NCBI GenBank assembly: GCA_947561715.1
Contig: OX387202.1
Location: 16,753,001-16,817,000, forward strand
Reading direction: 5' to 3'
Source: Ascidia mentula
Lineage: Eukaryota > Chordata > Ascidiacea > Phlebobranchia > Ascidiidae
DNA length: 64,000 nt
Of this stretch, positions 1-51,400 are shown one piece after another. The position numbers and the translations under genes are program-made. The notes under the pieces were generated by a model. That model was not told the origin of the DNA. It saw nothing but the letters and a program-made list of their open reading frames with translations, and searched no databases. Numbering within the stretch: position 1 is the stretch's first letter; the number at the start of each line of letters is the position of its first letter.

Positions 1-3000
1 GGAAACTTAACATTTAAAAGTTTATGTTGTAATTTTACCTTGTGTATTGACATAACTATGTCCAAGGCCACAATTCTGTTCATTAGTATGTTATCTGAAA
101 AATAAATTTTTGTTCAAGCACATGTTAATCTAAATCTGTGTATCAATGACTTAAATTCCTTTACGCATGTTCTTTTTCAGGGGCAATGATAAATACAGCT
201 TGTTTGTTCTTGACAACTACAATCTCAAAGAACTGTGGGATATGGACAAACAAGGACACAGAAACTTTACCATTGATGGGGGGAAAGCCTTTTTTCACTT
301 CAACCCACATCTGTGCTTGGACAAGATTAACAAAATAAGTAATCTGACTGCGGCGGTTGAGGATTCAACAGATATCTCCACAACCACCAATGGCGACAGA
401 GCTGCATGTAAGAAGTTTAACAAATATTTTACCACTAATTTACTGGCAACAGACATTTTCATGACAGTTTTGCTATTTTTATTGACGTATCACATGTTGG
501 TTGGGATTTGTTATTTTTGTGAAGTGGTGATTTTCAGACACTTTAAAATTTTGCAAACGTAGTTTTAAGTTTTTTTTACTTTTATATACTATGTTTAAAT
601 AGCAGAAAGTAGTTATATCAATATGACAGTGGTTTCCAAACTGTTGTATATACCAGTAGTCTTCCACTCTTTTAATGCAAAACCCATTTTGCTCAAAGAG
701 AAACTTCAAGGTTTTTTGATATAGCACTTTTCTGATGACCGTAGTAGTGCTGTAGCCTATTTATTAGTTTTTTAATTTGTATTTTTGGGCTGATATTTGG
801 ATAAAAATGATCAAACTTTTTTTCATATAGTGTGTTTGTTTTTAAGACTTTTTAAATGTGGGTGGAAGTTGATACATTGAAGGTTTCATATCCACCGCTG
901 TGGGGAAAATATACATTTCCTGAAATATAAAATATGTTTTAGAGCAAGTACTTTGTTTATTAATTGTATGATGTTCTGTCTGACAGGCGATGTTGAAGAA
1001 ATGATCATTGAATCGTACGGAATGCGTGGGGGAGACTTGGAAATTACATGGCGAAAACCAAACATTACGGATTACCGCACTCTGATCAGTTACCATGTGT
1101 ATTACAAAGAAAGGTACTTTGAATCATATCAAAACTTTCTGCAAAAACGTTCAAAAAAACAATTGAAAAAAAATTGTGGACAATTTTTTAGTTTTTTCTT
1201 GCAAATCACAAAGTAAGAACCTGAAACGTTTTATTTCTTTGTTTTTGTTTCCAATTTTGTTGTTTGTATCTCAAAACCTTTTTTATACCAACGATACATC
1301 ACCTATTACTCGCTTTTTTCAGCCCAACCGAAAATGCAACGTACTCTAGTGGGATCTCAGCTTGTGGTGAAAGCAGGTAAATTTCTTACTGCATTGGCAC
1401 AATGTTTCAAAGATGCACTTTTAATGCATATTTTCCTTTACTTAGTAACATTTACTTGTAAAGCAGAGAAAACTTCTTCCCCTCGTCCTGTTGTAAGAAA
1501 TCATAATTTCATTTTTCAGTTGGTTAATTGAGGACGTTGCTAAGGGAAAAGAACCGGTGGGCAATGAGTTTGCCTTTGGTGAAACAGTCATTCAAAATCT
1601 GGCCCCCTTTAGCAAATACGCATTCTACGTCACCACTTCAATGACCTCGACTACTCAAACAGGAGCCCAATCAAAAATCCATTATATCATTACCCCTCCA
1701 AACAGTAAGAACTCATATTTTGATGTTTATTTTGGATTTTAGCAAAAAAATTAACAGCTCACTACTTGTATATTAGCAAGAATATTGTTAGCCTGAATTA
1801 GTTTGATATAGAAACATATTTGAAGAATATACATTCCGATGAAATTCGGATGGATTAAAGTCGTTAGTGTAAGTGATATGTGGTTTGCTGGTACTGTTGC
1901 GTTCTGGTGGTTTTCCACAGCAGTTTGTAGTTTGTCACAAACACGTCAACAGCAACAACAAATTCACCATGTGCATGCATCTGTGTCTGACCAACAAGCT
2001 GACACGGGCTACATTTTTGTGAAAAATTTACAGTAAACTAACCTTACATCGCTTCATAGAGCCAAGTGTTCCAAGAGATGTGACCGTCACTGCTAATAAC
2101 CAGTCAACAATCTTTATTGAGTGGCTCCCACCAGCGCACCCCAATGGAAATATAACACATTACCTAATACGGTGGAAACAAGAGGTGGAGCACAGTGTCG
2201 ACATGCTAATAACAGTTGATATGTGTGGACATGGTAAAAATTGCAACGTTTATTGGCATTTTTTTGTTATTTTGAAGCTGAACGAAGACTACTGTGCAAA
2301 TTTTCACTTTGTTCAATCGAATTGCTTTTGTGGCATTTCGGTTGCCCTTGTTTATTAAAGAGTTTTTTCACAAAATCAGTCTTTAAATGAGCTTGTTTTA
2401 CTTAAGCCTGTTATTCTGTGATATTTTACCATTGAAAACCTCCATCTATTTAAAACATCTTTAGGATTCGTCCCAAAGGACACAAAGCCACTAAATCCTC
2501 CTGAACAAGATCCTGACATACCAGGGGAGGTATGTGATGCCCATACGTCAACTTCTATTTGCTCGGCACATAGTTTAAAATATATATACCAGAAAAAACA
2601 AGAATTAAGTTAAATTGATGTGTAGCGTAAGTGTGTGCATTGATAAGACCCACTCATCAAGTTGAACTTTATAACATCAAAACTTTTAAGATTTATTTTG
2701 TCTGGTTTTTAGTTAATCCACGGTCATGGTATTGCGTTACAGGTAAATTGCAAGTGTGACAGCACATCCAACACCCCCGGACAGCATACAACGAGTGTAC
2801 AAAGTCGAATCGATTCCCAGAAATTTGAAGATTTTCTTATTGATACTCTGATTGACAGGTAACTGCGCAGAGCACTGTGGTCTGTTACATATTGTTTTGA
2901 TAATATGTTTTTCCGTAATAGGCAACTATCAGAGTTTTGAGTTACGATGTGTGTTTTTCAAAAAAAAAAAGTTTTCCATAGCAAAATGAAAAAAAGTAAC

Positions 3001-5555
3001 ATTCTACAAGCATTGAGCCAATAATGACCAGTGGGTTGCAGAGAGATGTACACACTGTACAGACCTATCGGGTCCTAGTATTTAGGCTGACTTCACAAAA
3101 TTTGTTTTTTGATAATTATCAAATTTTATATCTGGGCATGATTTCAGTGTGTACGAGGGGAATTCAGTCGCCTACATTGAATTCAATGAAGGAACAGATG
3201 GATCCTTAAAGAGAAGGTAACCTCCACTCAACTGATTTTTATTTAGTCACTTGAATTTACCCCAAAACACATGATTTGTGCAAGACAAAATCACCAAATA
3301 TTTATAGAATTCTCATATGTATTACATGGATTATTTATTATTTTTATCGTTCAATGTATTTTAAGTTAAACTCCCCGTGCCAATCCTGATGTCGATTTTT
3401 TTGTGCTTGTTTTTTATGATTAAAACTAGAGCTTATCACCTAATTTCTTCAGAAAAAAGCGCAGCGCCAATTCAACTTTTCCGGAGAATCAGACTGTCAA
3501 CCCCAACACGACCAAGCCAGGTAATAATTAGAATATCTCAGCAACTGTAAAGAAATACTACGAAACTGTCTGCAATAGTCAGTGAACAAATATACTGTTC
3601 AGGTTTTTCAACTTTTTCGCTTTCGTCTACTTTTAACTGATTATAAAATTTTCTGTGACCACTTATATTTGTCGGCATAATAAGTTGCCTTAAAGCAGCA
3701 AAACCGATTGTCACAAATGTATATTTGGGTTGAAAAACGTATTGACCTTCTGTGAAGGAAACTGTATTCACACAGATGTTTGCTATAGGTCGCCAATCAT
3801 AATTTTCCAAAGGCTTTCAGAGTGCTGCTGCAATTACTAAAAAAAAACTGTTGTTACCAAAACACAAAACAATAATTGACCATTTCCTTTAATTGCAGAT
3901 ACCGCCACTGTAAAATTGGACCCCAAATACTTGTACAAGAATTTCACAACGTTTTCCAGCAACTTCACTTTGACCGGGTAATGACGACTAGAAATTAATA
4001 ATGGTTTTTGTTTTAAAGAAGTTAATTCTCCTCTGCAAATTGTTTGTTCCTAACTTTCACTTTATCCATTCTTTACACATTTCTTTTGCGCAGTTTGGAA
4101 CATTTCAGCAAATACATGTTCGAAATAAAAGCATGTAACCATGCTGCCATGTGCAGCGTCGCAACTATTTTAACACGCAGAACGAAAAAATCAAGCACAG
4201 TAGACGTTATTCCCGGCAATATTGAATATCTTCAGGATGACAAAAAGGTAAAGGAAAATATTGCACCAAGGTTCTTTTTAAGCTATACAAAGTCCTGGTT
4301 TTTTATTTCAACGAAAAATTTTTGACAAATGTCCGAAATGCCACACAAAATTTCGTCCTAATTCGATTTTTTCCGCATATTTACAACGTACATTCTGCAT
4401 TAAAAACAAGTAGCGCATTGCAGTATCGACATAACAGCCAAAAACTTTCGCAAAACATAGGACTTTTTGCTTATCCTGACTTGCGTTTGTCCAAGTTTAA
4501 CGAAAACAAACCCGTAAAAAATGTTACGTAAAAATTCAGCTATATCTTATTACGTGACAATTCACTTCCCGTTGCTAACCATCAGCTATCGAGACCCTTA
4601 ATACAAAGCGCCACGAATCGCAATGATTGACGTCCTAAACATTACATGACATTCCCAATTTCAGACAGTTGGTTCACTGAAGATGAGCACAGCAGCGTTC
4701 GAAACGTTTGCTTATAATGATAAGCATATTACCTTGGGCTTTTCTGTTCCGTGTAATCAACTCCCACGTTTTTCGCACCTAAATATGTTTCAATACTTCA
4801 ATAGACCAAATCACAGACGCAAACCGTCTTGTTTTTCAGCCTGAAAACAGAACGTTGAAGTGGAATCCCCCGGTAATGCCCAACGCTTTCATTAAGTATT
4901 ACACCATTGAGATAGAGAGACTGAGCGACGGAGTAAGTGTGTGACGTCAGTCAGCTTGTTTGTGTTAGTTTGTTTTGTTTATGGGGGTGGGTATATGCCA
5001 GTAAAACATATCAAATTAAATGTGGTTTAATGTTTATTGCTATTAGTTGTTTTGGAAAAAGTTTGTGGTATTTTATAATGATTTTGAAGGTCGCATGCAG
5101 AAATTGAGTTAAAATCACGTTCCTTTAAGACAATATGGGAAAATGGAATAGGCCTTAAAGCATAATAGTTGTCTGTGCTCAACGTAATATGGCGCAAAGA
5201 CGCAAATCGTTTTGCAGTGTAATATACGTGTTTCCCGTGCTGGTTAACCGATATCCATTAGCATACAGGTCGTTTATACAAAATAGCGCTACAATTCTAT
5301 TGAAAATTCAACAACAAAAAACGCTTGTTGCAGAAGTTGCAAAACAAATGCTGTTCTGCCATGTTCTACATGCGCCAAAACCACCAGTGCGAATTGCCCG
5401 GCGACCTCAAGAAAGGCGATCACAGAGCCAGGGTTTTACCTGTGTCGCTGGCGGGCCCCGGCATATGGTCGCCGCATGTTGTCTTTTCTATTGCAAGTCC
5501 GCCCACTGAAACTGTATCCACTACTGTTGTTGCTGGTCGTGACATTTGCAGTGCT
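1..5555 (+). repeat. Direct segmental duplication, left copy
   Basis: From base 1 to about 5555 this DNA aligns, introns included, with 22293-28123. The match reaches the left window edge, so the duplicated unit is longer than seen. It ends a few bases after the start of the membrane-spanning codons of the receptor gene. Introns carry many substitutions and small indels, and the right copy has roughly 250 extra bases in the intron before its exon at 27421. The copies are in the same orientation, about 16.7 kb apart. Confidence 0.9.
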
Positions 5556-5639
5556 GTATGGTTTCCAGTGACTTTCCTCTGCTCTTTGGAGCAATGGCTT
5601 GGTTCTTATTCATTATCGTTGTTTGCATTTGAAGAATAG
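181..5639 (+). CDS. Kinase-less insulin/IGF-receptor ectodomain duplicate (partial, 5' end outside window)
   Basis: Thirteen exons repeat the receptor gene at 16.7-31.9 kb: 181-407, 987-1113, 1323-1376, 1520-1704, 2060-2233, 2465-2529, 2713-2858, 3148-3216, 3453-3520, 3899-3977, 4094-4247, 4840-4932 and 5334-5639. The first twelve have exactly the same lengths and phases as their partners. They encode the end of L2, the FnIII domains, the insert domain and a basic cleavage site (RRKKRS, like RRKRRS in the full gene). In the last exon the frame shifts at the start of the membrane segment: the hydrophobic run of the full gene is replaced by a 36-residue tail starting VAGRDICSAVW and ending at a stop. 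No kinase exon follows in the window. If L1 and Cys-rich exons lie to the left, the product would be a soluble or weakly membrane-associated receptor ectodomain able to bind ligand or form dimers with the real receptor; this is inference. Alternatives are a pseudogene or an assembly artefact. Homology is certain; expression is unknown. Confidence 0.75.
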
Positions 5640-8281
5640 TTGGACAGTCATCATCCTGTACACAAAAATATAAACCCATGCTGTTTAAAGGTGTTTTGCC
5701 AATTTGCTGTCTGGTGATGATAAATTTAGATGTAATCAGTGCTGCATTAACTTTTTTTAGCTGAAAAACATGCTTATATGTTATAAATTGAATAAAACCA
5801 AGGTATCTTAAAGTGGTGGTATATTGCATACTATTGCACAAAACATGCAACATATCCAACATCTGCATTTTATAAACCATCACCCACACAAAGTAACAAT
5901 AAAATGATCTTTTTTAATTACCAGTTGTAAAATAGTAGGTGCTTGTTGTTCAACATTGTTGCCTGTTTGCAACACACCAAGAATCTGAGCAGCTTCGTAC
6001 GGTGGAATTTGGTCGAGTAGAGATGATATCAATCCATTTCCGGTGTTCATTTCATGCTCAGCAATCCCATTGCTTCCGTTTAGGTTGTCGTTGTTGGGAA
6101 TTTCAGTAACATTGCCAGAGTCCATTAGTAAATCGTCTGACACCACAATTCTGCAATATATAAGAAATTGTTGGCGTAACATTCAGTATTCTACCTCAGA
6201 TAACAGTTAAGTACTTGTCAAGTGGCACAAAACAAGCAGATGCATTGTGATAGTAAAGTAGCTAGGGCATACAACATATTTTTTTCCACAAGAAATTGTG
6301 ACTAAACATAGGAGGTTACTATGTTACATTCAGATTTCACATTTAAATTTAAAGTCAGCTCAGTCTTTTCAGCAACATTGACATGTTTATACCTAGCTGG
6401 TTGATGCACAGTGATGCTGCATGTGGCACTTGAAGCTACACATTGTCCTTCGGCATATGAATACTGCGTCATGTTTCCTTTGCTGCTCATGGCATTCGGT
6501 GACACATTTTGATGGTTATCCGACATCTGAATGCTGAATAACAAAAGCTTGGGTTTGTCATATGTTATAATTGTCTCCAAAAGCAAATTAAGTACATACT
6601 AATTAGTATTACAATAACCCATTCTCGATCAGTATAATATTTTAGCTTTTATAATTTTATATCATTAAGATTTAAAATACGGTACATTTCAGAATTACAG
6701 TAAAACTCGGTTAATCTGGATACATTTCATGACCAGATTAAGCATTTTTTCACATTGTCTGAAATTGTTTATTTATTACAGTCGAATGCTGTACAGCTAG
6801 AAAAATATCAGTAAAAAATGCCTTGATTGAACAATCTTATAATCTAAAAATCCTAAAAGCAGTGCATCATGTGTTTGATTTTGTTGATTTGAGTAGGCAT
6901 AAAGTGCCAATCTAGGCCACAAAGACTTGGGCTAATTTAGTACCATGTACTGTATTCCACATAGGAATATTGAATGGCACACTGTAGTGCAATAATGTAA
7001 TTGTCAAAGCAGTTCAGGATTTGCATTCTGTTCATAATTGGGAAGTTGATATTTTACTATTTTACCTTGGCAATGTCCCTATACAATGTATATTGTGGGT
7101 TATCTGTGTTGGTACAGCATATCGTGAACTTGATTGAATGTTTGTGTTGTTTGAAGGAAGGCAAACAGAAAGCTGATTCATTTGATTGCCTGCAATAAAT
7201 AAAAAATCAGTAAATGAACAATTTGTGACGAAGTTTACAACAATATTATGCAGCAGAACTTTTTTTCTACGAATAACACTGTTCCTTCTGGAAGTCCTTT
7301 TAGTAGGTTATGGGCAAAGGTATATTTACCCCTAAAAAATGGCAGACGGGCAATGTTTTTTTATTATTTCTCATGTCTTTTGTTAACGATCATAGAATAT
7401 GTACAATTGTATCAATGTGTTTATTAGTATCTCTGTCAACAAAAATATAACAGTAGTTTAAAAATTGATAATTGTTTTAACACTTATAATGCTAATTTAC
7501 ATATTGCCACACATTTTTACCTTCGTTCATTGGAATAGATTGCAAAGAATTCATGTTATTTCCTTCATAGCTGGCCTCCATTCGAGCATCAACACTGGAT
7601 ACTTCGTCAGAGAGAATGTGCTGTGGCATGGGTGCAGTTGGGCACATCTGTTGTCGTGGTGGCATACATGGTGTGTTTTTGTGTTGGAAAAACATTTCCA
7701 AGCTGTTAAATTGTTGCTTGCATCTGTACAGCACATGGGTGAGTGATTAGAAACACCTTGGCCACCTCTTTGTTCAAACACAAATTGACTGAGCAGAAAT
7801 ACACATATCACTTTATGACAAAACAATAGGCAATATGTCATGAAGGAAAAGAATCGTAAGTCTCACAAAAAAATATTCGTTAGACTACCAAAGCATTCGA
7901 TGCTTTCTGTTTTGACAAAATTGATTTGTAGGAAATGGTCCAATGAAATTACTTTGTGCAGTGACTTTGCATTTGCACGATCCCTACAGAAAAGAATTGT
8001 TTCTTACCTTCCACATTGGAATATATCACTTTCATCATTCCGATTGCAGAATTCTGCATTGATTGGGCAGCACTAGCAATGTGAATATTTGGGGCGTTGT
8101 GGTTAAGACCATCTTGCCTTCCATCCGACAACGATGAAGAATTTTCCAGAAAAGGCAAATTTTCTGGTGCACCTGTGTAATTGTTTGACCATGAATTTTT
8201 CTAGTTGAATGCATTTAAAAAGACAATGAAACAAAACACACGCTTACCCGGCGCAGACAACGACTCAAAGTACGACTGCAT
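5521..8281 (-). CDS. Unrecognised Asn/Ser/Gln-rich protein, multi-exon
   Basis: I do not recognise this gene. Exons on the - strand, 5' to 3': 8281-8248 (start MQSYFESLSAPG), 8172-8008, one uncertain junction, about 7702-7521, 7189-7066, 6533-6393, 6150-5922 and 5655-5521. From 7702 onwards the phases fit (2-1-2-2-0-0-stop). The join between the exon at 8008 and the next is not solved: phases clash unless a small exon near 7.87-7.97 kb is used. The protein is rich in Asn, Ser, Gln and Met with no visible catalytic motif, zinc finger, coiled coil or membrane segment, like the activation region of a transcription factor or coactivator; that is only a resemblance. A helical-looking stretch reads QIPPYEAAQILGVLQ. 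The last exon runs antisense across the last exon of the receptor duplicate and stops in duplicated sequence, so the duplication may have cut off the original 3' end. Confidence 0.5.
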
Positions 8282-9234
8282 GGCAAAAGGACAGATGTAC
8301 TGTCTTAAGCATGTAAAAGTCTAATCGTTTGCTCGATAACAAATCTCGAAGACTGTATTGTTTTTACATGTTTCAGGGCTAAACCATATCGACAGAAATT
8401 TTTCAAAACAGCAAACAAACACAATTTAAGCTCCACAGCTGATTCGGCGGTAGTCACACTTACGTACATAACTTGGTGCTCTCTTATTTCATGCCTACTC
8501 CAAGAATTTGACAAAAAGGTTTAAATAAGTTGACCAAAAATGTGTGAATTTTGTAATGTATATTTCAAATAATTCTTAACTTTGTCAAAAAAAGATTTGT
8601 TACTTTAACAAAATTGCACAGAAATTGAAAACCATGTTTTCTGTGATGCTCGGGATTCCGCATGTCAAAAGTATAATGATAATGTGCCAGAAAAAGCACA
8701 TCCCTGGGCTGACGGTCCCTCCAAAAATTCATTATATGCATTTTGGTTTCCAGACAACAATGGAATTAAAGTAAAATTACTAATAAATCACCTCGCAAGA
8801 TACCTATAAGCACGACCTTGTTCGTTCTCACATCAAAGTACTGTACTTTGGAAATGTAAGATTTCTATCGAACGCACAAGCTATGACGTAATAAGTATAT
8901 TTAACAACAATGACCGCAATACCGCCACTTTCTTTGTAAAGCTGAGAATTTGAAAGTGGAAGAAGCCAGATGTTTGCTTTAAAATAGACTGAATATAAGT
9001 CGACATGGTGAGGAAAGAAACATTGGCTTAAAGTTTTAAACGAACATAAAAAACTTAAGTAACAAATTCTCCAATAAAACTAAAATTATGTCTTTTTGGG
9101 CATGGTTGATGATATATATTTATTGTAAATTGCTATTTTAGATGTGATAGCTGATAGGTAATAAGCTCTACATTTTGTTATTCCTGAGTTTATTGCTCGT
9201 TTTGCTGGTGATCTTGCTGCTTTGTGCTTGCTAC
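8282..9234. other. Intergenic spacer between divergent genes
   Basis: This is 953 bases between the divergent start codons of the unrecognised - strand gene and Spire. No convincing exon or repeat is seen. It probably holds the promoters or 5' UTRs of both genes. An upstream non-coding or short coding exon of Spire cannot be excluded. Confidence 0.5.
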
Positions 9235-12200
9235 ATGAATTTGCAAGACATTTTGAGCTGCTTCAATAATCCATTAAAAGAGGACCAAGTATGGGCACTT
9301 TGTTACAAATGCGCAACAAGCATTCTATGTAACGACACTTATAATAAAGACGTGATACAGGGAGATGCATTTGTGTCACCAAACGGACTAAAATCAGTGT
9401 TTTTGGACCACCATGGTCAGGTTGACGTTGATGGGGTCAGTGTTCAAAATGAAGCGGAGGTATGGATGTAATGTACATTGTGGTACTTGATATTCATTTG
9501 TTTATCATAATTTAAAGGTAGTATTTGTTTTTTACCATTAAAACTATCCCATATTGGGGAAAATAGAAGCAATAGAAGTTAGATAATGCGTTACCATATG
9601 AAAAACGTTGCGATCGTCTGTGTAGTTAAAGATTGCTGAAAAAATCTTCCCCACAAATAACAAACTTTCCAATCTGGGAACTACCAAACAACTTTTGGTT
9701 TGCATAGCCTACATGCACAAACATTTTCGAACAGCTGCTTAATTTTATTGATTATTGAATCTATTACAGGTGGTATTGAATTTGGGGCTTGTCCTGTTTG
9801 CTGCTTTGGATTATGGACTTGATGCTGATGAAGAACAGCAGATATCGGAACCTTTGGAGAAATTGCTATCTGTTATGACTTGTGAAGTTTCGGACCAGGA
9901 AAATTGGGACGAAGGTTACAATGACGACAAGACAACTGAACCGTGCTCCCTAAGTTCTATCATTCAGGTAGAAAGCTTTGGTAACACAAGTTTGTTTTGT
10001 GCTGTGACAATGTTTTGTTGAATCTGAGGTTAATAAAATTTTTGGTATTTTAGTCCCATGTTTGTGAGCTTTAAGATAATGTTATTCTGGTTTAAGGTTT
10101 GCGAGAACAACTTTTGCCGCAGCGAAGAAATGTATTCGGAAATCTGTCGCAACATGCTGAAAGAGGCTTACTTGCTCAAGTCATTCCTTGGCAACATATC
10201 AACGGCTTCAGAAGTAAGCCAAGTTGAACTTTGTGTGTTAGTTGGCTGGCATATCATTGTCACCTTTACATGTAAATCTAAACAAGTATGTACTTCTGTT
10301 GACTTTGCATTCCAAAAAACTAGTCATGTGCAATGTGATAGAACTATAGTGACTGTTACAGTTTCGTGTTAAATGTTTTTTGGTGTAATGCTTCCGTGGT
10401 TGTTTTATGGTTATACATATATAGTGTTTTCGTATCAGTATCATTATGAACTTGAACATTTGACCAACTTTATAGTTTCGTATTGGTAGTACTGTGGAGT
10501 GGTGAGTTCAGGCAAGAGCATGAAACACCTTTGTTTTCAGAGACCGGCCTTTGCTATAAAATCAATATGCATGAAAGCAGGGCTTTTAATTTGTATGTGT
10601 ATATTTATGTTTATGCACGAATGATAACAAATCCAGGTGCATGCAATATTTAAGAGAAATTGAACAGCAAAGCCAACTTAAAATTATGCTTCCATTTATG
10701 GAATTTTAACTTACAAATGCCCTTTCTCAAAACAGTGAGCACTCTTTGACTTGTCGTTATACTTGAAAACCTATGGTCAGTCTTGTCCCACCACTTGATT
10801 TGACAAGAATTTCCCGATCAGACTTCGTAGAAAGGCACACGTCCCATATACTTTCACAAAGCACTTAACTTCTTAGATGAGCCCACGAAAGTCGCAATCA
10901 AGACGTAATTGTGGCCCAGAGCCGGTTACGCCTAAGCCTATTACACTTAATTATGACTGACTTATAAGCCACTGAGTGTGGTGATTAAAACTGAGATGGC
11001 CGACGTATACTTCAGCACCTACGCACAGTTCCTTTTAGCTGGAATTCCAGACTAAACATCGCACTGCACTAGTTTTGGAGTGACAGAAACCTAATGAAAA
11101 CCCTTGCCAATCAATAAATCAAATATTTCTGTTTACTTTGTTTTTATGCAAATAATCCAAACCTACATGTCAACTTCTATTTACTCTATGCTAACATACT
11201 TGTTTCTTCTTATGCATTGGGAAGTGTTGAAAATTCGCAAATAACCCATACATTTTTCATTTAAAAGGGCCTAAACAGACTAAGTCGGAAATGTAGAAGG
11301 CCCAGCGTGAACAGTGCAAGCTCCATTGGAAAGCAAGACTTTGAATGCTGGGTGAGCGTTTGCTGCAGAAACAACACACAATCAACGCAAATTTCATGTC
11401 CTTATTTTGTGTTTTTGAATTTAGACCCACTCGTGGCTTGATGTTCTTGGCGACTTGCACTCTCGCAGGCCATCTCTCCGACATGTTGATACGCCACAGG
11501 GGCCACCGATCAATAAGTTCGACTTATCACCCTATGAATTGTTAATGGAGGATATCAGGCAGAGGAAATATAACTTGTACAAAGTAAATACAATAGTTGT
11601 GTGTTTACCTGCACAAGTGAGCTTTATTCCCCCCGCCATCAAAAAACATTTATATTTGCACATAAATCAAAATTGTTTTTGTCGAAAACAGTTGTTTGTC
11701 AGTGTATATATGTAAAGAACGGTAGCGATATTTGTGAAGAAATATATAGCTCCTATTGTGATGTAACAGTTTTCAAAACCACGATACAATTTGATTGGTT
11801 TATTGCACTTTTTACTAAAACAACAACTTGCTGTCTATCCAGGTGAAGGAAGTGCACAAATCGCCAAGTAAAGCAAACCCTTCCGTGCATGACACAATAT
11901 TGGAATTTGTGCGTTCACAACCCACTTTAATGCCAGTAAGTTAGAAATTAATTTGTTCTATGTACAATTGTGCGTACTGTCACCCAACTAAAAATTTAAA
12001 ACTTATTGCTTTTTATGATATAACCAACTTTGGTCTGTTGTTAATTTTTAAGTGTTAAGTTGATTTAAAAACGTTTTTTGCAGGCACACAAAAGAGTCCT
12101 TAGGCCTTTGCCTCCTCGTTCCAAATCAGTACACGAAAAGTTAATTGAACAAATCAAAGACCATTCTTTAACCTTGAAGCCAGTTGCAAATGTGGAGAAT

Positions 12201-15043
12201 GTGTTGAGATCGTCACAGAGCTTTACAGCGCCTGGTTTGTAAAATATTGTGTTTCACCACAGTAATTTCTTTTAAAAAAGCTAAAATTATGTGTATACAT
12301 TTTTGGGTATATTTTTGTTGTTTGAATCATGTTTTAAGTATATCATGAACTTTTGCCATGGTTGCACAGTTAATTTAACAAGTGGATAATTTCACCACAA
12401 TTAATTACAAAGATAACGTTGCAATGTAAATGGCTTGTTTCGTTCTTGTTTAATTGAGTGTTCTTTAAATCAGTCTGCCTCAAAGTGCCAAGACATTACA
12501 AAAGAACAGTCAAGTAACACGGGACGGATACTGTTTGCTGCATAACTTGTTCAAAATTAAAAACTTACATCACAGATAAAATGGAAGATGGTTTTACTCC
12601 CTGCAAGATTAGAGGAAAAGCCATCCGTTACAGTGATTCCATTCGCAGAAACCAGTGTAAGTTTAACCTCACCCTGGTATTAAAGGAAAATGAACCTTTT
12701 TATTTGCTTTCTATACTTATATGCAGGCAAGGTTATGATGCTTTATTGAACAGCTAAATTATTTCGTAGAAAGCGGTGTTAGTTTAACCTCATACTGTAT
12801 TAAAATAAATTATACCGTTTTAAAATTATGATGCTTTATTGAACAGCTGAATTCTTTCTCGTTGACTAATTTTTCTCACATGATTTTTTTTGTTTCTAAT
12901 CATGTTATTTCTTCACAGTGCTGCCATCTGGTCTTTACTCCAACAAAAATTGGCTTTATGACGATGCAGTGTTCGTTTCTAAGCAAACCAAACCCCTGAG
13001 GCGGACGCAAAGTGCAGCGATACGTTCCACCTCCAAGAACTGGTCTTCAAGCAAAAGAAACAAACTTCTTGGCGGTTTGCCCGAAAACGCAAATCTTACG
13101 CATTCGTCAAGTCAGTCTGTCACCAACCTGAAGGATATTCACGAGGACCGCCGCTGCCAAACCGATGGAAAAGTAATTTTAATCACCATTGTTGTGACAT
13201 AGTTCATTCCACGATTACAGCATATTAACACTGTTTTACAATGTTTGCAGAGTAGTAAACTTTTATCACTCTCAAGCATGTGATTTCGCACATGCGTAAT
13301 CACAATAAGTTACTACACTTGAGTGAAGTTAATGTTTTATATGACCTCCACAAATAACCTTGTTGATGAGTTCACCAAGTTTGACTTGTAATTTTGTTAT
13401 GATTGAACTATTTGAATGAGTATCAGAATCACCAAACAGTTTTTCTAAGCGACTAAGACTTATTAGATTTTTTTGACAAATTGTATTAGACAAAATAGAA
13501 TGTAATTGAATAAGTGATACTGACGATGCCCAACTGTAGGCATAGTGACAAATGACATGGGTTTTTTTCTTATATAATTTGTTATAATTGTGTTGATATT
13601 AACTAGGCATGGAAAATGACTCCAAATGATTGCTTGTCGTTGACTGTCGAGGAAGTTATGCACATACGACAGGTCTTAACCCGCGCTGACCTGGAAAAAA
13701 TACAGCAGTCAAAAGAACTGTACCAGGCTTTAAAGAATGGCAAGGTAAGTTTTTACAAACTGATGAACAGTAACAAATTAAAGGAAACTTGTTCCATTTT
13801 TTTAGGTTTGTTTTAACTGCAAACTGAAAAAGTTTTCAATATTTTCCTGGTCCCACCCATGTCAGATATGCAAGCAAAAAGTGTGCAGCAAATGTCTGAA
13901 AAAGGTAAATCACTGGACACTGGAAATATAAAATACAGTAGGACTCAGTTAATCCAGAATCCAGATTTGCTGAAAAATTTGTCTGCAATAAGTTAAGTTC
14001 TGTTTTGTCTGAAGCCGATTGTTTTAGGTCTTAGTCTGTGTTGTTAATACGATATCTACCAAAATCATTGTAATTAAACTAATACATCTTTGTAACTTCG
14101 AAAGACCTTTTGCATGCATAGTTTTCAGTTTCTCACAGACTGATACCCAAGTAGCTTCGTTCAGCAATAATAATTGCTGGTCAGCCAGTTGAGTTATATA
14201 GATATTACAATGTTTGAAGCGCACAATCAAGCAAGTAACTAACAGTAAGTTATTTGTGTTTCTTAGTTGGAAGCACCTGCACAAAAGTACCTGAAAATAC
14301 CTGTGTATGCTCTAAGCCCAGCCACTTTCACCTCTCCTACTCCAGATACAAGTCGCATGCTGCGCCCAAGGTACGTTTACAGTTGTCATTTGTTCATACT
14401 CTTTAGTGTTTCATTTATGTTTAACTTTAATGTGATTGTATTGTGGGTTTCAACCTCACCAGTATTTGCTATGTCACTGTTGTCTGTGGCACTGCAGTCT
14501 TTTTCATCTATGTTTGGTTTGATATTAAATCCTTTTTACATGTGATAAAGTAAACTATCTTGAATTCTTGTTTGTTTTTTCCCATAATAAATGAGGAACT
14601 TGCAATTCACTAGGCACAAACTTTACATTCGATGCAAGCTGATAGAACAAATAGGCATATAGTATTGAAATGTTGATTTAATATGTCTTAGAGTGACACA
14701 AAGTTTAACAGAATAAAAGACGATTGACTTTAGGCAATTTTTGTTATATGCAACTCAGGTACGGGTAATACGAAGGTTTTTTTTATGAATAATTGGAGAA
14801 ACAACTGCCAATGAATCCGAATCATCAGCTATAAGGACCATATTGTATGATTTTTATTTCAGTTTTTCGATGATGTTCGGAAGTTCACTGTATCGATTGT
14901 CGACAACACAGCAAGAAAGTCTGAAGCAGACGTACAAGAAGCAATCTGGAAGCAACCTTTATCAGGGTTTTCGAATGGACGTTTGTGTTGAATGCTACTT
15001 ACTTATCACTGCAATTTTGGAAGTTAATGGTCATGCCCCCTAG
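9235..15043 (+). CDS. SPIRE: Spire-type actin nucleation factor
   Basis: Thirteen phase-consistent exons: 9235-9459, 9770-9967, 10097-10213, 11268-11351, 11425-11583, 11843-11935, 12084-12234, 12576-12656, 12919-13172, 13607-13744, 13806-13904, 14267-14370 and 14863-15043, giving about 627 residues (human SPIRE1 is about 750). Domains in order: a KIND domain ([20 protein letters not shown] near the start, then [10 protein letters not shown]), WH2-type actin-binding motifs ([44 protein letters not shown]), the Spir box ([16 protein letters not shown]) and a modified FYVE zinc finger with CxxC pairs in the exons at 13806 and 14863. Spire nucleates actin filaments with formins and acts on Rab11 vesicles. 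The start is the ATG directly before the conserved KIND helix; no upstream extension is seen. The C-terminus after the last CxxC (VCVEC) is short and lacks the basic tail of vertebrate Spire proteins, so another 3' exon may be missed. Confidence 0.9.
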
Positions 15044-15148
15044 TAAACTCACCAATTTACTGTTGTTACACTTTATGCCAAATGCAATTATTTGTCTGTA
15101 TATATTTAATATAGTATTACAGTGTTGCCGCAATATACTTTTGCACAG

Positions 15149-15429
15149 GTTTTGTGAAACATAGACAGATAACTGCTACACAATCTGCTACTGTGATAAT
15201 CACCATCCTTACACTAGTATTTTTATGTCATGCCATTCCAAATGTTGCTTACTTTGGTGCTCTTTATGTCCTGAAGCTAGTGGCCGTTCTTCTAACTGTA
15301 TTAAGTATGTTACTGTATTTACTTTTATGTCTTAGGCTTTGTACACAAAATGCAACAAGGACCAAATATTTTCCAACAGTGTGTGTGTGTTTTCTAGGCA
15401 ACTGTTTGAAGAGTAGGCCCACAGAATAG
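15149..15429 (+). pseudogene. GPCR-like exon fragment (TM6-TM7)
   Basis: After an AG acceptor at 15148 an open frame reads FVKHRQITATQSATVIITIL and continues into LVFLCHAIPNVAYFG. This resembles the end of intracellular loop 3 and TM6 of rhodopsin-like peptide receptors (CxxPN in the FxxCWxP position). A second hydrophobic run follows (VLKLVAVLLTVLSMLLYLLL) in the TM7 position, but without an NPxxY motif. No TM1-TM5 coding sequence is seen nearby. It may be a degenerate receptor fragment, a chance hydrophobic ORF, or an unrecognised terminal exon. The assignment to the GPCR family is by resemblance only. Confidence 0.3.
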
Positions 15430-16733
15430 CTAAGTAAAACGTCAATAGATTATTTAGGATCAGTGACAAATGCTCTTGACCATGGTAACAATGTAGAGTT
15501 CTGCTGCTAAGGTAATTTCAAAAAAGATTCCTCAATTAGAGAAACACGATTGGGTTGTTACGCAATGATCCACGTTGTTTGCACCGTTTGGTTTGTCTTT
15601 ACAATAGAGAATGGTTTGTAAGGATCTCCATTGACGAAAGGCCCGCGGTAAATAGCTTTGACTTGGTTTTGTTTGGGTGGGAACTGCAGTATGGTTTCCG
15701 TTGATCCGCCACGGGAATTACTGCTCTTTGCGTCACATTGTAAATGTTTAAAAAATGTCGAAAGCAATATTTCGTCTGTTAGAATAATAAAGCACAAGCA
15801 CCAACGCCCACCGAAAGGTCAACAACGCACAGATGAAAACATCGAACTATGATCCATATTGAAACAAGAAACATTACACTAAAAATCCAAACCACATAAT
15901 TTACCACCGATACGTATTACTACGGCAATTTTACTGAAAATAGTAAAACGCCCACGCTTACGGATTATTCACTCAGACGGGTGAAATCGGTTTGACACGA
16001 GGTGTTTTGCGCTTTTGTTTCAACAATTTCGACGAGTGCGAACAAGCTTGATGAACCGTAACGAGTCACGTGACCCTAAAAATCATGTTGTTTACGGGAA
16101 TTGTATTGTGTTGGCCTTCGTCGGTTCACGAAGGGAAAGGTAATGCCAGCGAGTTGTTTGTCTAGGTTTGGTTGCTATTTCACCGCATTCGCGTTGCATT
16201 TTCGCCCTTGACAGATGCGTCCTGCCCAAATAAAGCAATTAATTACAGTCGAAATGTGGGAAAGTTTAATTGTTTTTGTTTTTTATGTTTGTTGGATGTA
16301 ACTTCCGCGCCATTGTTTTCGACACATAGGCCACACTCCAATAAATTGAGACGTATTGCTGAGAAAAGAAGGAACTAACACTTGAAAAGCTCTATGAGGC
16401 ATACCTTACACAAAATAGTAGTCAGTTTTTTGTTGACAATGAACTAAATTTATTATTTTTTTGTTAGGATCCCAATAACTTCTTTTTTTTCAGTTCAATT
16501 AAAGTTCAATCATTAAAAGTGTGGTTATTCTTAACATTTCAAATACATACATAGTGCCACTCAGCTTATCTAGGAAGAGAGTTGCCATAAAAAAGCATAG
16601 AAAAGCGTTGTGTATTTGTAACAAACAAATTAAATGAGGTATAAGTTAAGGTAATCGTCATTAATGTTATGCAAAAAAACAGTAGAATGCTTATTGACGT
16701 TTTTTTTAGCAGTTGATAAGAATGAAATAAAAA
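15430..16733. other. Intergenic spacer upstream of the receptor gene
   Basis: No supported gene. A - strand open frame ends at 15558 but has no good start or splice context. The 3' end, close to 16.7 kb, carries the polypyrimidine-AG site described separately. Confidence 0.5.
16693..16709 (+). promoter_or_regulatory. Candidate splice or trans-splice acceptor 24 nt before receptor ATG
   Basis: A run of eight T followed by AG at 16708-16709 lies 24 bases before the ATG at 16734. In Ciona many mRNAs receive a spliced leader at such a site; it could equally be the end of a 5' UTR intron. Confidence 0.4.
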
Positions 16734-19700
16734 ATGTCGCATTGGCACAATCTTGTTGCCTGTTTATTTTGCTTGATGACTGCTTGCTCATTTGCAACGA
16801 AAAATAGCACGCAAATGCTAAAAAGTCTGTTTGATGAGTCATTTGAAGGGATTCCAGGAGAAGACGTGCCAACGAACAGTTCACTTGGTATAGATATATG
16901 GGCACATTTCTATGAAGGGCCAGGTAAATGTTTTCATAGCAATTTTGTTTATGAACTGTTTTCAACTGGTTTTTCTTGTGCTTGAAGTATGAATATAACT
17001 ATTTATATGCATCTGAGAGACTTTATAATCTGTAAGGATTTTGTACGCTATAGCTTGTCACAAACCTATCGCACAAACAAAATGAAGCACAACCAAAATG
17101 TTTACTTTTGAAACAGTGTTTGGTAATTTTTTTTATTTAATGGAACTTGTCTACCTAGTTAAATAGTATAGATATTGCTTTCTGGCTCATTTTGCTTACA
17201 CCTTGGGTTTTTGTGCAGTGTGTGAACTTATTGAAGTCAATCATCCAGACTCCTTTGCTGACCTTGAAAAATGTACAATAGTAAATGGTTTTGTGAGGAT
17301 TTTGCTGTTGAACCAGGATGGATACGATGAAAACAAAATGTATGATCCAGGTCGAAAAGTGTCACAATATAACAAAATAATGATTTTGTTCTTTCCAGTG
17401 AGACATTTCCAACTTTTCCGAAGTTACGTGTGATAATTGACTATTTGTTGATATACCGTGTGTATGGCTTGAAGACAATACGACGGTTGTTCCCCAACCT
17501 TGTGATGATCGGTGGTAGAAATTTGCTGTATCAAAAATACGCCATGGTAATTTTCGAGAATCCGGATCTTACTGAGGTAATATGACCTTGGTTTTGGCTG
17601 CTCAATGTGATAAATTATGATTTTTCTGTTTGCTAGATGGTTTTTGTCTTAGATTTGCAAACCTTGTTCATTTTTTAATAACCTGTTCAAGTTAGTTTCC
17701 AAATACCTTAAAATGTATGGTAATTTGTTGTAAGCTTGGCTGTTGATACAACATACACATTCCATCTCAAAGGTTAAGGACAGTTATATCACTAAAAAGT
17801 CATTGAAAATAATTACACCATAACATGACAAGGTAATACCCCAAAATAACAAGTATTAAACTCGTAATATTGTTTCTTGAAGCACAATCAAGGATATTGT
17901 ATCATCTACATGTTTTCATTTTCAGATTGGTCTAAGCAATTTGGGATACATTAAAAAAGGTACAGTGCGAATTCAGAACAACGGCAACCTATGCTACCTG
18001 CGGACAATAGACTGGTCCTTGTTGGGAACGGTGAGTTAATCTTTTAATTGCTACCAGTACAACAACTATCCATACATGCACACAAACATTGTGGGTTTGT
18101 GTGCCCTGTTTGTACATACAGGCCCCTCTGTACGCAATCTAAATAAAACACTACTGTGCACACCAAGGTTTGGTCAGTGCCCAATGTGCCCCGCTTCTGA
18201 TGGTACTTTAAAACGTAAATGTAAGTTGCCAACTGATGTTGATGCACGCGCGTGTACCTAACAGACATAGTTATGTTTACCAACAGTCTGGATAAGGCGA
18301 GCTTCGATAACACGATGTGTAGATAACTAACTAGTTCACAGTGTTCAAATAATAATGCTTTGCTATGTTTAATTGATGATATTGCACAGGTTTAAGCAAA
18401 TATGACAGAAAATTGGAATAAATGTAACTATGGTTTCCCATTTAATATTTATTGGAAACTCAAGGAATGCATTGCTCGTTTATATTTTATTGTTGCGCCT
18501 ATTTTAAATAAATTTATAGCAGAGCTAAGAATATTTTTAACTAAAGGAACTTCTGCTTAACTGAAGGGGCTCATGTTTATTTCATACATGACAACACTTC
18601 CAGTAGAAAATACATAACTTAATTACAAAACCAATATAAAGGGTTATAACTGAAAAACAACCTGCGTTAAAGCCATTTCCAGTGCATGTGTTGACAGACA
18701 TTCCCAACCTAGCCAACAACTTCCTGTCGGGTGGTTGATTTTGTTTAATTTCATCATTTTGTTATAATGCTTTCCTGTTGTTTTAGTTCTATTCAAACGT
18801 TGCCCTGAAAGATACGGATGTGTTGGACAACAACGACAATTGCATTGACCAATGCAGCGAGACAAGTGAAAAGCGATGCATTCTTGAGGATGTGGGTGAC
18901 ATTCCAAGCGCATATTGTTGGGGATTGGGTCTTTGCCAAGCAAGTAAGTATAAACTTCTCATTTCGCATTGTAGCACTCTCAAACTAAATCAACCTCTAA
19001 AACAAAAAAAGCCTTGTGTGAAGGCGCAATAAATACAAAACACATTTGTATCTTATTGAAAATGCAAGAACAAAGTATTTCCACTGAATACGCAAGGTAT
19101 AAAATTCTGAAATGTTTTGCGAAGATATTTACCTCCGTTATGCAAAGAAGTGGCATTTTAGAAGAGGTTGATTCTATGAAGAAAACCTTAATATTGTAAC
19201 CTGTAGATTCATGTAATCTTTATGTTTTTCGTAACATCTATGTTACCAATGATGTGGTTCATCCCATTAAAGTGCAGAGACATGTCAAAGTGTAGTTCGC
19301 TCGATGTTGACTTTTTTTTCAACTGGTTTTTAAAGGCGTGCGATGATATTGAAATTTATTGTCGGATACTAGCTTGGATGAGAATTTACTAAACTGCTCA
19401 GTCTAGTCTAAATGTGGACTCGAGTATTTATACCCCATAAAAATACCTTTTGTACTTACCATGGCTGGTATATGGTCCCAATTTGTGTCCAAGAACATTG
19501 CATTTACACAGGCACCATACTATATCCTGAAAGTAGATTTAAGAATGCTTTTATTTATACTCTTTCATTATTGTTTCAGAATGTCCAAAAAATTGTACTA
19601 ATGCCTGTCAGGCATCTTCCTGCGTTTGCCATGAGCAGTGCCTTGGCGGTTGCTACTCGTCCAACAGTGCTTCAAGCTGCTTCGCTTGCCGAAATTATTA

Positions 19701-22700
19701 CTTTGAAGGAACCTGTGTAGAGCAATGTCCGTCCCACACTCTTCTGGTAAGAGTCAAAATTATCCCAGACATTAACTTTTTGAGGTAGAATTCTGTACTT
19801 CTTTCTGGAGTTGAATTTAGTGTTGACAAACTTGCTTATCTTGACAACTTATTGATATTCCTGTGTATGCAAACAACCTGTATGTTTGTTGCCTTGCGTG
19901 TGGCAAATTTCAAAACAATGCATAGCTGTAAATGTGCTCTAACTTTTTAAACTACATTATTCACACAAGCCTTTGCTTTCACGCTAATGTTTAAATTTTT
20001 TTGGGGGGTTATGAAAATACCGTATTTGTTTATGCAATCTTTTTCATGTATTGTAGACATATCCATTATGCATTTTCAAATCCAAGGTAATTTTTTTTTA
20101 AAAAACTTTTTCAAAAATGTGTTTTTCACTTGGTGTCACCAAAAAGTTGTCAAAAACGAGCAATCTATTTGTAAATATATGATAGTGTGGCAGGTCTGTC
20201 GGGTGATAAATTAGATTTTTGAAGCCAAATAATTTGTATTAGTTTTGTGCTTTGTTATTAAACACAACAGAAAAGATCGACAAATGCTCTGGCCAACATT
20301 CACACAAAGGCATCAGCTACCTTATTTTAAAAATTTGCAGGATACTTTAATTAGTGCTCTGCATATATACAGTGGGAGCAATAAAACATATATACCACCC
20401 CGTTAGGGTTAATAAGCACCACAGTTTTTGAATTCAGAGAATTTGATAGCAATGATTTGGCTATATTAGTTGGCAGAAACATCAATAAAAAAAAAACATG
20501 CAAAAAATAAATAATTAGTAATGAAAAAAGTATTTCAAGATTTCTTAGATATAAGGATATTATTTTGTTTTAAGATTTATTGTTAAGAGCAGGATTCATA
20601 TGACTGCAGTGAGGCTACTATTTCCTTTTTAAACTTTTCAGGCTCATAAATGGCAGTGCTTGTATCATGAAAATTGCAGTGCCATTGAATTTGTCCATCA
20701 TGAGGGGCTATGTCTGGAGCACTGCCCACACCAGCACAAAAAAGTAGCAAGCGGGTCCAAGTTTACTTGTGTTAAGTGCGATGGAGAATGCAATAAAAGT
20801 AACTACATCATTCTTGTTATTTTAATCATTTTTATTCTTCAAATAACATTTTAGTTTAATAGATATTGAGACTGGGAAGTACTTATGTTTTTGCTGTATA
20901 AAACCATCATTAAGCAGACCTATTTTAACATGCCTGTACATTAAGTGTGTCTTGATTAACTTTTGTGTTCTTTTGAGGTATTTGCCAAATTCTAAACCTT
21001 TTTCGGTGCTAAAATTATTGTGTTTTATTCAGTCTGCCTATTTGAATCATCGTATGAAGTCACAAACCTGGAGTCACTGCAAAAAATTCAGAGGTGCACA
21101 GTGATACAGGGTCAGCTGATATTGAGCTTGTCTGGAGGAGGTAATGACATTTTCCTTTCAATGGTATCAAAAAGTAATGAAAATATGCAGAAGAAAAATT
21201 ATGCATATTTTTATTGTGTCAAGACATTGTTCACCATATTACTATTGTTGTTTAAAGCAGGTATTCTTAAACATTTTGGGCCACAGACCTTATTTGTCCA
21301 ATCTGTATGTTAGGGAAAACAAAAAAATAAAGCAACACTGCAGCCCCCATAAGTCCGTGGACCCCAGACTGGTTTATATCATATCGATAGTGGGGGGCTT
21401 GTCAATTATAGCTTATCCTGAAAGAAAATGTTGTTCACAATTGCGGTTTAATTATGTTTGGCAATAATGATTGTTCGTACATCACCACAGCATTTAAATT
21501 CGGACACGGTAGTCATCATAGTATGACCCTGCATTTACATAGTTACAAAAAAATATGTGTCCAATATCTTACTGAAGGTTGAATTATACACATGTGACGA
21601 TTTATCATGATATTTTCTCTAATTTGAAGTAAATGAATCAATTCGTTTTTGTTAGCTTCGGTTGATGTGGATAATAAACTACAAGAAGCACTCGGGGAAC
21701 TACAACAGGTTGATTCACTTGTGATTCGAAGATCGTTTCCGATCGTCTCTTTATCCTTCTTCAAAAATCTTCACAAAATAACAGGAGTTGAGCAATACTT
21801 ATATGAACAGTATGTACAGTAGATCACATAGCTGTAACTGCTTCATTTCAAATTATCACGGGCATCCTGTAATAATTATTAACAAAGAAAATGGGACCCA
21901 TAACAAATTTAGCTAGCCTTTTGCAATGGTTAATGGTAAACTAACAACTCATTCTAATTGGTGTACGATTGATGCATTGCAAGTTCGGTAAATCTTACCA
22001 AGTTCGTCTCTCGAGAAGAAATTTGGAGAACTACTGGCTTGGTTGTTTGTTAGGTCTCTGATGTAAAATAGCTTTGGTGTATGTATTCCAATTACAGTGT
22101 TTAGACATAATATGTAAAACCTGACAATATCGATCGAGGTGGTAGACCTTCTATAAATCCTGAAAAGTCCTGACTGGGATTTAAACCCAGGTCATCCCTG
22201 CATAGTAAAAAAATTTGGAAAATAAAAGCATTTAATATATTCTTTTCAAAATCCACCTTTTTCCAACTTTATTTATTGTGCATGACACAGGTGGAAACTT
22301 CGCATTTAAAAGTTTATGTTGTAATTTTGCCTTGTGTAATGGCATAACTACGTCCAAGGCCACAATTCTGTTCATTAGTATGTTATCTGACAAATATTTT
22401 GTGTTGAAGCACCTGTTAATCTAAATCTGTGTATCAATGACTTAAATTCCTTTACGCATGTTTTTTTCAGGGGCAACGACAAATACAGCTTGTTTGTTCT
22501 CGACAACTACAATCTCAAAGAACTGTGGGATATGGACAAACAAGGTCGCAGAAACTTCACCATTGATGGGGGGAAGGCCTTTTTTCACTTCAACCCACAT
22601 CTGTGCTTGGACAAGATCAACAAAATAAGCAATTTGACTGCAGCGGTTGAGGATTCAACAGATATCTCCACGACCACCAATGGCGACAGAGTTGCATGTA

Positions 22701-40008: not shown

Positions 40009-45044
<5,036 letters not shown>

Positions 45045-51339: not shown

Positions 51340-51357
51340 TATGTCATAGCTTCACAG
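51340..51357 (+). promoter_or_regulatory. Candidate acceptor pair before the synaptophysin-like ATG
   Basis: CATAG (ending 51349) and CACAG (ending 51357) follow a pyrimidine-rich stretch 43-51 bases before the ATG at 51401. The coding region is intronless, so a spliced leader or a single 5' UTR intron are the two readings. Confidence 0.35.
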
Positions 51358-51400
51358 TAACAAGTTATATAATTGGTTTGTTTGTTTGTGGCAAGTAACT

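Follow-up and report, generated by a model that had tools for sequence, protein, structure and literature searches.

The insulin receptor gene of Ascidia mentula has been partially duplicated head to tail, and we propose that the upstream copy (copy A) is probably a maintained, ectodomain-only insulin receptor gene that would encode a secreted decoy and may also form silent hybrids with the full-length receptor lying next to it (copy B). The window analysed is a 64,000-nucleotide stretch of contig OX387202.1 (C70); genome position equals C70:16,753,000 plus the window coordinate, negative coordinates lie left of the window, and all receptor features given below are on the plus strand.

Self-BLAST of C70:16713001-16789000, a 76-kb interval without any N, placed copy A first and copy B after it, colinear at 86-100% identity. 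Together the repeats make up a single colinear tandem unit, ruling out chance. The copy A unit runs from -23485 to 5562 (1-5562 within the window), so that the duplication starts 23.5 kb to the left of the window and takes in the entire 5' half of the receptor gene; its left edge (C70:16729515) was the same in the whole-genome DNA search and in self-BLAST. The copy B unit occupies 5553-28129, as defined by self-BLAST and the junction sequences, and its right end falls within the exon that encodes the transmembrane helix of the full-length receptor. The A/B junction (5553-5562) is base-precise, with only a few bases of homology. Each unit also holds DNA of its own: self-BLAST showed A-specific repeats in copy A, and the unit B stretch 8939-14163, which contains a Spire-like gene, has no counterpart in copy A at E 1e-3, KIND matches above the cut-off being confined to unit B. 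Exons on the opposite strand sit between the two copies, and the truncated duplicate of an opposite-strand neighbour gene likewise looks preserved.

Copy B comprises exons 1-22 at 16734-28168, encoding the complete ectodomain and the transmembrane helix, and continues into juxtamembrane (NPEY) and tyrosine kinase exons that are missing from copy A (28445-31137, approximate outer limits from frame translation). A genome search with the ectodomain protein returned 42 matches among the best 46 of 60 candidates scored, all of them in copies A and B, and as far as this search shows the genome appears to have one signalling insulin receptor. L-domain matches on another contig, C73, were set aside as a further insulin receptor locus, being ErbB-like by eye.

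Exon models recovered 22 of 22 ectodomain exons in copy A. E1, with the start codon and signal peptide, lies at -15349 to -15163 (C70:16737651-16737837), and the protein-search match begins at its first base; the signal peptide was assigned by visual inspection (its best hydropathy over 19 residues is 1.25). E2-E9, encoding L1, the Cys-rich domain and the first part of L2, span -9479 to -475. E10-E21, with canonical splice sites, span 181-4932 (E10 at 181-407, E21 at 4840-4932) and encode the end of L2, FnIII-1, FnIII-2 with the insert domain and alpha-CT, and the start of FnIII-3; exon 18 (3453-3520) carries the furin site RKKR at its start. E2-E21 equal those of copy B in length, E10-E21 measuring 227, 127, 54, 185, 174, 65, 116, 69, 68, 79, 154 and 93 nt in both copies, with equal phases and 89.7-98.5% identity. 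All 21 acceptors and all 21 donors are intact, and the reading frame runs for 978 codons, up to the membrane codons, without a stop or frameshift. An alternative end of exon 2 at CCAGGTCGA was dropped, as its phases did not chain while those of a GTATGA donor do; a Cys-rich-looking extra frame at 18118-18258 was omitted, exons 4 and 5 joining in phase without it and matching human INSR. The preliminary description had reported twelve complete exons repeated with identical lengths and phases and a basic alpha/beta cleavage site, and had made its reading depend on unbroken L1 and Cys-rich exons to the left of the window. E10-E21 of copy A do match copy B exon for exon, the cleavage site is present as RKKR at residue 784, and the L1 and Cys-rich exons were found together with L2, a start codon and a signal-peptide exon, none of them broken; the sole frame break affects the membrane codons of exon 22.

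The predicted product is 1016 aa long, terminating at TAG 5637-5639, and has the ectodomain architecture of the insulin receptor family: L1, Cys-rich, L2 and three FnIII domains with an insert. Pfam identified two Recep_L_domain stretches, Furin-like and fn3, with only one fn3 stretch, the other FnIII domains coming from alignment to INSR. A phmmer search of the PDB matched residues 58-967 to INSR (9jfd_A; 480.5 bits, E 9.6e-143). The furin site reads RKKR|S, with RRKR in copy B. All 42 cysteines are common to the ectodomains of A and B, 36 of them aligned to a human cysteine. Copy A also keeps the alpha-CT segment KFEDFL, the cysteines in SACGES and VNCKCD and the alpha-beta cysteines; we take these cysteines to form the alpha-alpha and alpha-beta links, their allocation to individual bonds being presumed. 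A ligand-binding-type ectodomain with conserved L1 and alpha-CT behind a signal peptide (by eye), lacking helix and kinase, fits the layout of a decoy.

Exon 22 of copy A (5334-5639), aligned to 27903-28168 of copy B, encodes the rest of FnIII-3, a frameshifted and truncated membrane region and a tail derived from the junction. The breakpoint of the duplication sits inside the membrane-helix codons, and a 2-bp deletion immediately before it puts the helix out of frame; the best 19-residue hydropathy is 1.42 for the tail of copy A versus 2.89 for copy B. Copy A thus lacks the transmembrane helix through breakpoint and frameshift, and the tyrosine kinase through the stop at 5637-5639. A candidate poly(A) signal, AATAAA, lies about 150 bp past the stop (5791-5796), with a further AATAAA at 5898, in a pattern scan of 5640-6100. 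When the six kinase-side frames of copy B (28401-31137) were compared with 5563-16733, the best E value was 0.32, while each of the six frames found itself as a positive control, and the genome DNA search found no second copy of the kinase-side DNA among the best 40 of 470 candidates scored. The earlier statement that no kinase exons follow the copy is therefore borne out. Its companion, that the copy ends at the membrane exon, needs amending: the acceptor of exon 22 is that of the membrane exon of B, but the donor is missing at the matching place, and the exon is fused to other sequence at ~5562 and carries the 2-bp deletion. Because breakpoint and deletion remove the helix, copy A is expected to be secreted. 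Between the two outcomes originally envisaged, a secreted or a loosely anchored protein, helix loss and the signal-peptide exon favour the former; weak or lipid anchoring through the mildly hydrophobic tail (1.42 over 19 residues) is possible.

Over 978 aligned codons (93.6% identity), dS between A and B was 0.223 and dN 0.030, a ratio of 0.133; these selection figures are pairwise, give only a bound on the rate of the A branch, and hold on condition that A and B are paralogues and not alleles. Divergence across introns was 0.109, calculated without 2 of the 21 introns (those after E1 and E3), where copy A has kilobase insertions. E17 has no per-exon ratio because it shows zero synonymous differences. 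Both copies share 314 of 883 aligned residues with human INSR, and of 61 amino-acid differences between them 53 align to it, A matching the human residue at 9, B at 9 and neither at 35, so that A and B have equal relative rates against human INSR. By domain, dN was higher in the Cys-rich domain (0.046) than in L1 (0.016), and the Cys-rich domain is tied to ligand choice. The FnIII part of exon 22, which A uses only if its transcripts end in that exon, showed 3 nonsynonymous changes versus 14.5 expected (P 3e-4), or 8.3 expected at the slower intron rate (P 0.035). If A and B are paralogues, these values suggest that copy A is separately maintained by purifying selection; if the species is highly polymorphic, some of the divergence may be older than the duplication, which would weaken the test.

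The condition on paralogy raises the question of an assembly artefact, in which A and B would be highly diverged alleles set in tandem, A stopping where a haplotype contig ended. Such a misassembly would give the same X-unit-unit-Y pattern, and tandem allele misassemblies are documented for Ciona savignyi in the part of PMC1868934 consulted. Copies A and B and the duplicated opposite-strand gene all look constrained, as alleles would, and the 2-bp deletion sits near the junction. We nevertheless consider this reading unlikely. A dS of 0.22 and an intron divergence of 0.109 are well above the allelic diversity known for the most polymorphic ascidians, the Spire-like gene and the DNA around it in unit B are matched nowhere in A at E 1e-3, and with a base-precise junction and gap-free sequence the homology would appear too short for an overlap join. 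Whole-genome DNA searches with control stretches for haplotype duplicates (one on the kinase side, one in the left flank and two downstream) returned, among the candidates scored, the own place of each stretch plus matches of up to ~300 bases resembling dispersed repeats. Like the kinase side, all three further stretches were single-copy apart from these short matches (40 of 65, 40 of 262 and 10 of 10 candidates scored). Retained haplotigs thus seem not to be common here, which bears on haplotigs and not by itself on a local misjoin.

A dead partial duplicate whose decay is still to come would equally lack kinase and helix and could carry the one frameshift in its membrane codons. Frame integrity and substitution pattern ruled out a pseudogene as the main reading of copy A, and we regard it as quite unlikely. 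When neutral evolution was simulated at half the intron divergence, 7.6 stops accumulated on average, and zero stops occurred in 0.1% of 2000 runs. About 15 frameshift indels would be expected on one neutral branch, as estimated from intron gaps, versus none in the 978 codons of A, and 67.5 nonsynonymous changes were seen on both branches versus ~240 expected if A alone were neutral. The intact splice sites and the dN/dS ratio of 0.13 argue in the same direction.

Under the decoy model, copy A would have arisen as a second insulin receptor gene when part of the locus was duplicated in tandem and the right breakpoint fell within the membrane helix, its product consisting of signal peptide and L1-CR-L2-FnIII(1-3) without helix or kinase. 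If expressed, the protein would be cleaved at RKKR, linked by disulphides into dimers and secreted. Judging by homology, it would bind and sequester the animal's insulin-like peptides, lowering or buffering their action on receptor B, with net antagonism as the likely outcome. Pairing of A with B might also yield kinase-poor hybrids at the cell surface, and such hybrids are possible because the dimer cysteines of A are intact. That A works solely through such pairing, as a membrane-retained dominant negative leaving little free decoy, seems very unlikely: its dimer cysteines are all kept, and hybrids of DAF-2A and DAF-2B are reported in the portion of PMC13421766 consulted, but a protein with a signal peptide and no helix should be secreted as homodimers wherever A is in excess. 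Highly improbable is an alternative cassette, with transcripts beginning at A and A exon 21 spliced to B exon 22 as a second ectodomain for the single kinase. In its favour, this join would run from phase 0 to phase 0, all boundaries agree in phase (as follows from their duplicate origin), and A exon 22 lacks the corresponding donor. Against it, the FnIII codons of A exon 22 show the conservation of translated sequence (though P is only 0.035 when the intron rate is used), AATAAA signals come after the A stop, and the interval between the two copies holds exons of the opposite strand.

Among the papers listed in a literature search on decoy, truncated and tunicate insulin receptors, mostly open-access ones, no title or abstract opening named a tunicate decoy insulin receptor. 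Copy A may well be the first chordate gene dedicated to encoding a decoy insulin receptor, formed by a one-step tandem duplication cut in the helix, freed by a 2-bp deletion and kept by selection beside its parent, with the Cys-rich domain changing faster than L1. It offers a clean case of selection keeping a duplicate after its catalytic half was lost. With decoy and parent adjoining at ~94% exon identity, either one could be removed or exchanged on its own, and the pair opens the question of how an animal with apparently a single signalling insulin receptor adjusts its hormone level by means of a soluble counterpart.

Decoy insulin receptors as a kind are already known from flies, other insects and, in transcript form, nematodes. 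Drosophila SDR, an old and strongly diverged gene, resembles copy A in being a separate gene for a receptor ectodomain without helix or kinase; unlike SDR, copy A is the head-to-tail neighbour of a live receptor, with 93.6% identity across the aligned codons and all introns kept. According to passages of PMC7041946 and PMC7357564, SDR binds insulin-like peptides and antagonises signalling. The insect decoys of Smykal et al. (2020) are, from the part of that work consulted, kinase-less insulin receptor paralogues like A in another phylum, whereas for copy A the single partial tandem duplication that produced it can be traced to the exact base. A 2013 title places genes and splice variants of this kind in arthropods and in cDNA from human brain; going by that title, the human case is a cDNA or splice form, and a chordate decoy encoded by its own gene would remain distinct from it. 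FGFRL1 belongs to another receptor family than copy A and keeps its membrane helix. This kinase-less relative of receptor tyrosine kinases was, by the account in part of PMC12026108, initially thought to be a decoy and is now seen as multifunctional. Similar in length is DAF-2B of C. elegans (1020 aa by its paper versus 1016 aa), described in sections of PMC7041946 and PMC13421766 as an ectodomain-only, secreted, dimeric protein that sequesters insulin-like peptides and forms hybrids; it is an alternative transcript of the single receptor gene that extends past exon 11.5 into the following intron and lacks the beta subunit. Copy A, unlike DAF-2B, forms a gene of its own, has its own leader exon and retains FnIII sequence beyond the cleavage site.

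Copy A, the kinase-less copy of the insulin receptor ectodomain, has the same 22 exons (E1–E22) as copy B, the full-length receptor gene beside it. Positions are given relative to the window (C70:16753001–16817000), so that adding 16,753,000 yields the genome position and zero or negative values denote upstream sequence. E1 of copy A, with the start codon and putative signal peptide, occupies −15349 to −15163 and differs from its counterpart by one in-frame 3-bp gap, E2–E9 lie at −9479 to −475, also upstream of the window, and E2–E21 are identical in length between the copies, with AG kept at 21 of 21 acceptors and GT at 21 of 21 donors. The twelve repeated receptor exons that the preliminary description had placed at 1–5639 were thus confirmed, as E10–E21 match copy B in length and have intact splice sites. 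In E22, copy A carries, in order, an in-frame 3-bp gap, a 2-bp deletion among the codons for the helix, the duplication junction, a junction-made tail and the stop codon TAG (5637–5639). The best 19-residue hydropathy was 2.89 for the helix of copy B versus 1.42 for the tail that replaces it in copy A, and AATAAA occurs at 5791 and 5898, downstream of the stop. The further claim that no kinase follows copy A also held: six kinase-side frames of copy B gave a best match of only E 0.32 between the copies (5563–16733) and of only E 0.12 in −39999 to −15350, while in a control stretch every one of the six frames recovered itself.

About 30 bp 5′ of the ATG, both copies have a pyrimidine tract with TTTTAG, a sequence that could be a spliced-leader acceptor. 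The Ciona-type spliced leader plus GT was found at 931 + 899 places genome-wide (1830), whereas its reversed control gave 0 + 0, which supports an ascidian origin of the sequence. Among the places listed, many sit in regular arrays, and on another contig (C1:15239664–15315846) the arrays have a regular spacing of 719–720 bp among the places listed. Upstream of E1 of copy B, 14911–15360 and 15811–16110 are 97–99% identical to matching parts of −17150 to −15850, and the sequence between these blocks is mostly 80–83% identical, with 95% in its final 150 bp. Gene conversion could explain the near-identical blocks, as could conserved elements, for instance a small coding exon or promoter parts common to both copies.

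When the 76 kb between −39999 and 36000, which contain zero N bases, were compared with themselves, a single head-to-tail duplication emerged, with unit A at −23485 to 5562, unit B at 5553 to 28129 and long matches mostly of 86–92% identity. At the middle junction, right-end TTTGCAGTGCT is fused to left-end GTATGG with a similarity of a few bases only, and the right breakpoint falls within the transmembrane helix codons of the full receptor. By exon models, E1–E22 of copy B extend up to the helix at 16734–28168, followed by an NPEY juxtamembrane exon and then by kinase frames including DFG, the kinase exons being approximate and taken from the frames. Introns 1 and 3 of copy A are extended by several kilobases, with repeats making up much of the addition. 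A Spire-like gene at 9200–14100 (KIND domain by Pfam, the rest by eye) is present in unit B only, and 8939–14163, which holds it, has no match in unit A at E 1e-3; KIND matches genome-wide numbered three, of which two exceed the cut-off and are pieces of unit B, whereas the one on contig C1 falls below it. Next to this stretch, 85 bp (8854–8938) are 100% identical in both units, with surroundings at about 87%. Duplicated with the unit is an opposite-strand gene at 5553–8940 (minus strand) and −23485 to −19966, with exons containing MSDNHQNVSPNAM... and ...LISSLLDQIPPYEAAQILGVLQ; its frame at 5883–6182 has no Pfam match. Its copy beside receptor A is at the unit edge and so would have lost anything beyond. 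Elsewhere in the window are minus-strand exons resembling casein kinase 2 alpha (41683–44645, named by eye) and a 255-aa open frame with a MARVEL domain (51350–52114).

The strongest rival explanation is that A and B are alleles misassembled in tandem, which is reported as a known problem for Ciona savignyi (PMC1868934). However, the junction is seamless and homology-poor, and the Spire-like stretch of unit B is missing from A. In the 195.8-Mb assembly of 79 contigs, moreover, the kinase side has no second copy among the candidates scored, and three control stretches are single-copy apart from short repeat matches (for two of them, among the candidates scored). The dS between A and B is also high relative to the allelic diversity of the most polymorphic ascidians. 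The opposite-strand gene at the unit start, whose compared exons are open reading frames in both units, is neutral to slightly adverse here, since alleles and a moderately old duplication would both account for it.

Treating A and B as duplicates, we counted 119.5 synonymous and 67.5 nonsynonymous differences in 978 aligned codons (dS 0.223, dN 0.030, ratio 0.133). By region, the ratio was lowest in L1 and Fn3 (0.08), followed by the initial part of Fn2 (0.09), L2 and Fn1 (0.10), the beta-side insert with the remainder of Fn2 (0.16), the Cys-rich region (0.22), the signal/pro region (0.26) and the short alpha insert (0.36, from just 2.5 synonymous differences). Intron divergence was 0.109 (19 of 21 introns, 7265 aligned bases), with 93 gaps, of which 75 have lengths not divisible by three. 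The neutrality tests attribute half of the divergence to A by assumption, and would be weaker if the duplication joined diverged alleles, part of dS then predating it. With a neutral A on that half, about 240 nonsynonymous changes and 15.1 coding frameshift indels are expected; 67.5 (on both branches) and 0 were seen. Neutral simulation at 0.055 gave a mean of 7.6 stops and was stop-free in 0.1% of 2000 runs, and at the slower intron rate the nonsynonymous deficit persists (131 expected, P 4e-10). With 3 changes against expectations of 14.5 (P 3e-4) or, from the intron rate, 8.3 (P 0.035), the extracellular codons of copy A E22 are by this comparison under constraint, which favours transcripts ending in A's own last exon over A21→B22 splicing.

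In the 1016-aa copy A protein, Pfam recognized two stretches of L domain, one of fn3 and a Furin-like Cys-rich region. Using phmmer against PDB, A and B scored 480.5 and 485.8 bits to the insulin receptor ectodomain (9jfd_A), 476.7 and 473.8 to IGF1R (6vwg_A), and 279.6 and 284.5 to an 'Insulin-like receptor' (8cls_A), and are thus about equally good receptors. Each is identical to human INSR at 314 of 883 aligned residues; the copies differ at 61 amino acids, 53 of which align to human INSR, and of these 9 have the human residue in A, 9 in B and 35 in neither copy. The copies have all 42 cysteines in common, including those of SACGES, VNCKCD, DMCGH and QNKCC, and both retain the furin site (as RKKR in A and RRKR in B) and the alpha-CT KFEDFL. 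One L1 site is Arg in A and Asn in B, and aligns to human Arg14, a residue that contacts insulin. On a further contig (C73:1932079–1973911), four L-domain matches, ErbB-type by eye, share a strand and span no more than 40 kb; they may represent an ascidian ErbB receptor cluster arranged in tandem.

With a signal peptide and no helix, copy A would be secreted; its conserved L1 and alpha-CT would allow it to bind insulin-like peptides, and its conserved cysteines to form disulphide dimers, possibly hybrids with B. Because of this predicted secretion, binding and dimerization and the parallel with DAF-2B, the ectodomain-only insulin receptor form of C. elegans, we favour a decoy, as the preliminary description had proposed, or a buffer, with B hybrids as a second mode. 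Ectodomain-only insulin receptors are as a kind already known, from SDR, insect decoy receptors and DAF-2B. By their titles, Smykal 2020 reportedly treats insect decoy insulin receptors, and Vastermark 2013 describes arthropods and human brain cDNA as sources of such ectodomain genes and splice variants. DAF-2B, which follows the same logic as copy A, is reportedly secreted, sequesters insulin-like peptides and makes homodimers and hybrids (PMC7041946, PMC13421766), and Drosophila SDR is described as a decoy insulin receptor (PMC7041946, PMC7357564). No tunicate decoy or truncated insulin receptor was among the matches listed in our open-literature searches. Beside these systems, copy A would represent an independent and very transparent chordate origin of a predicted decoy insulin receptor.
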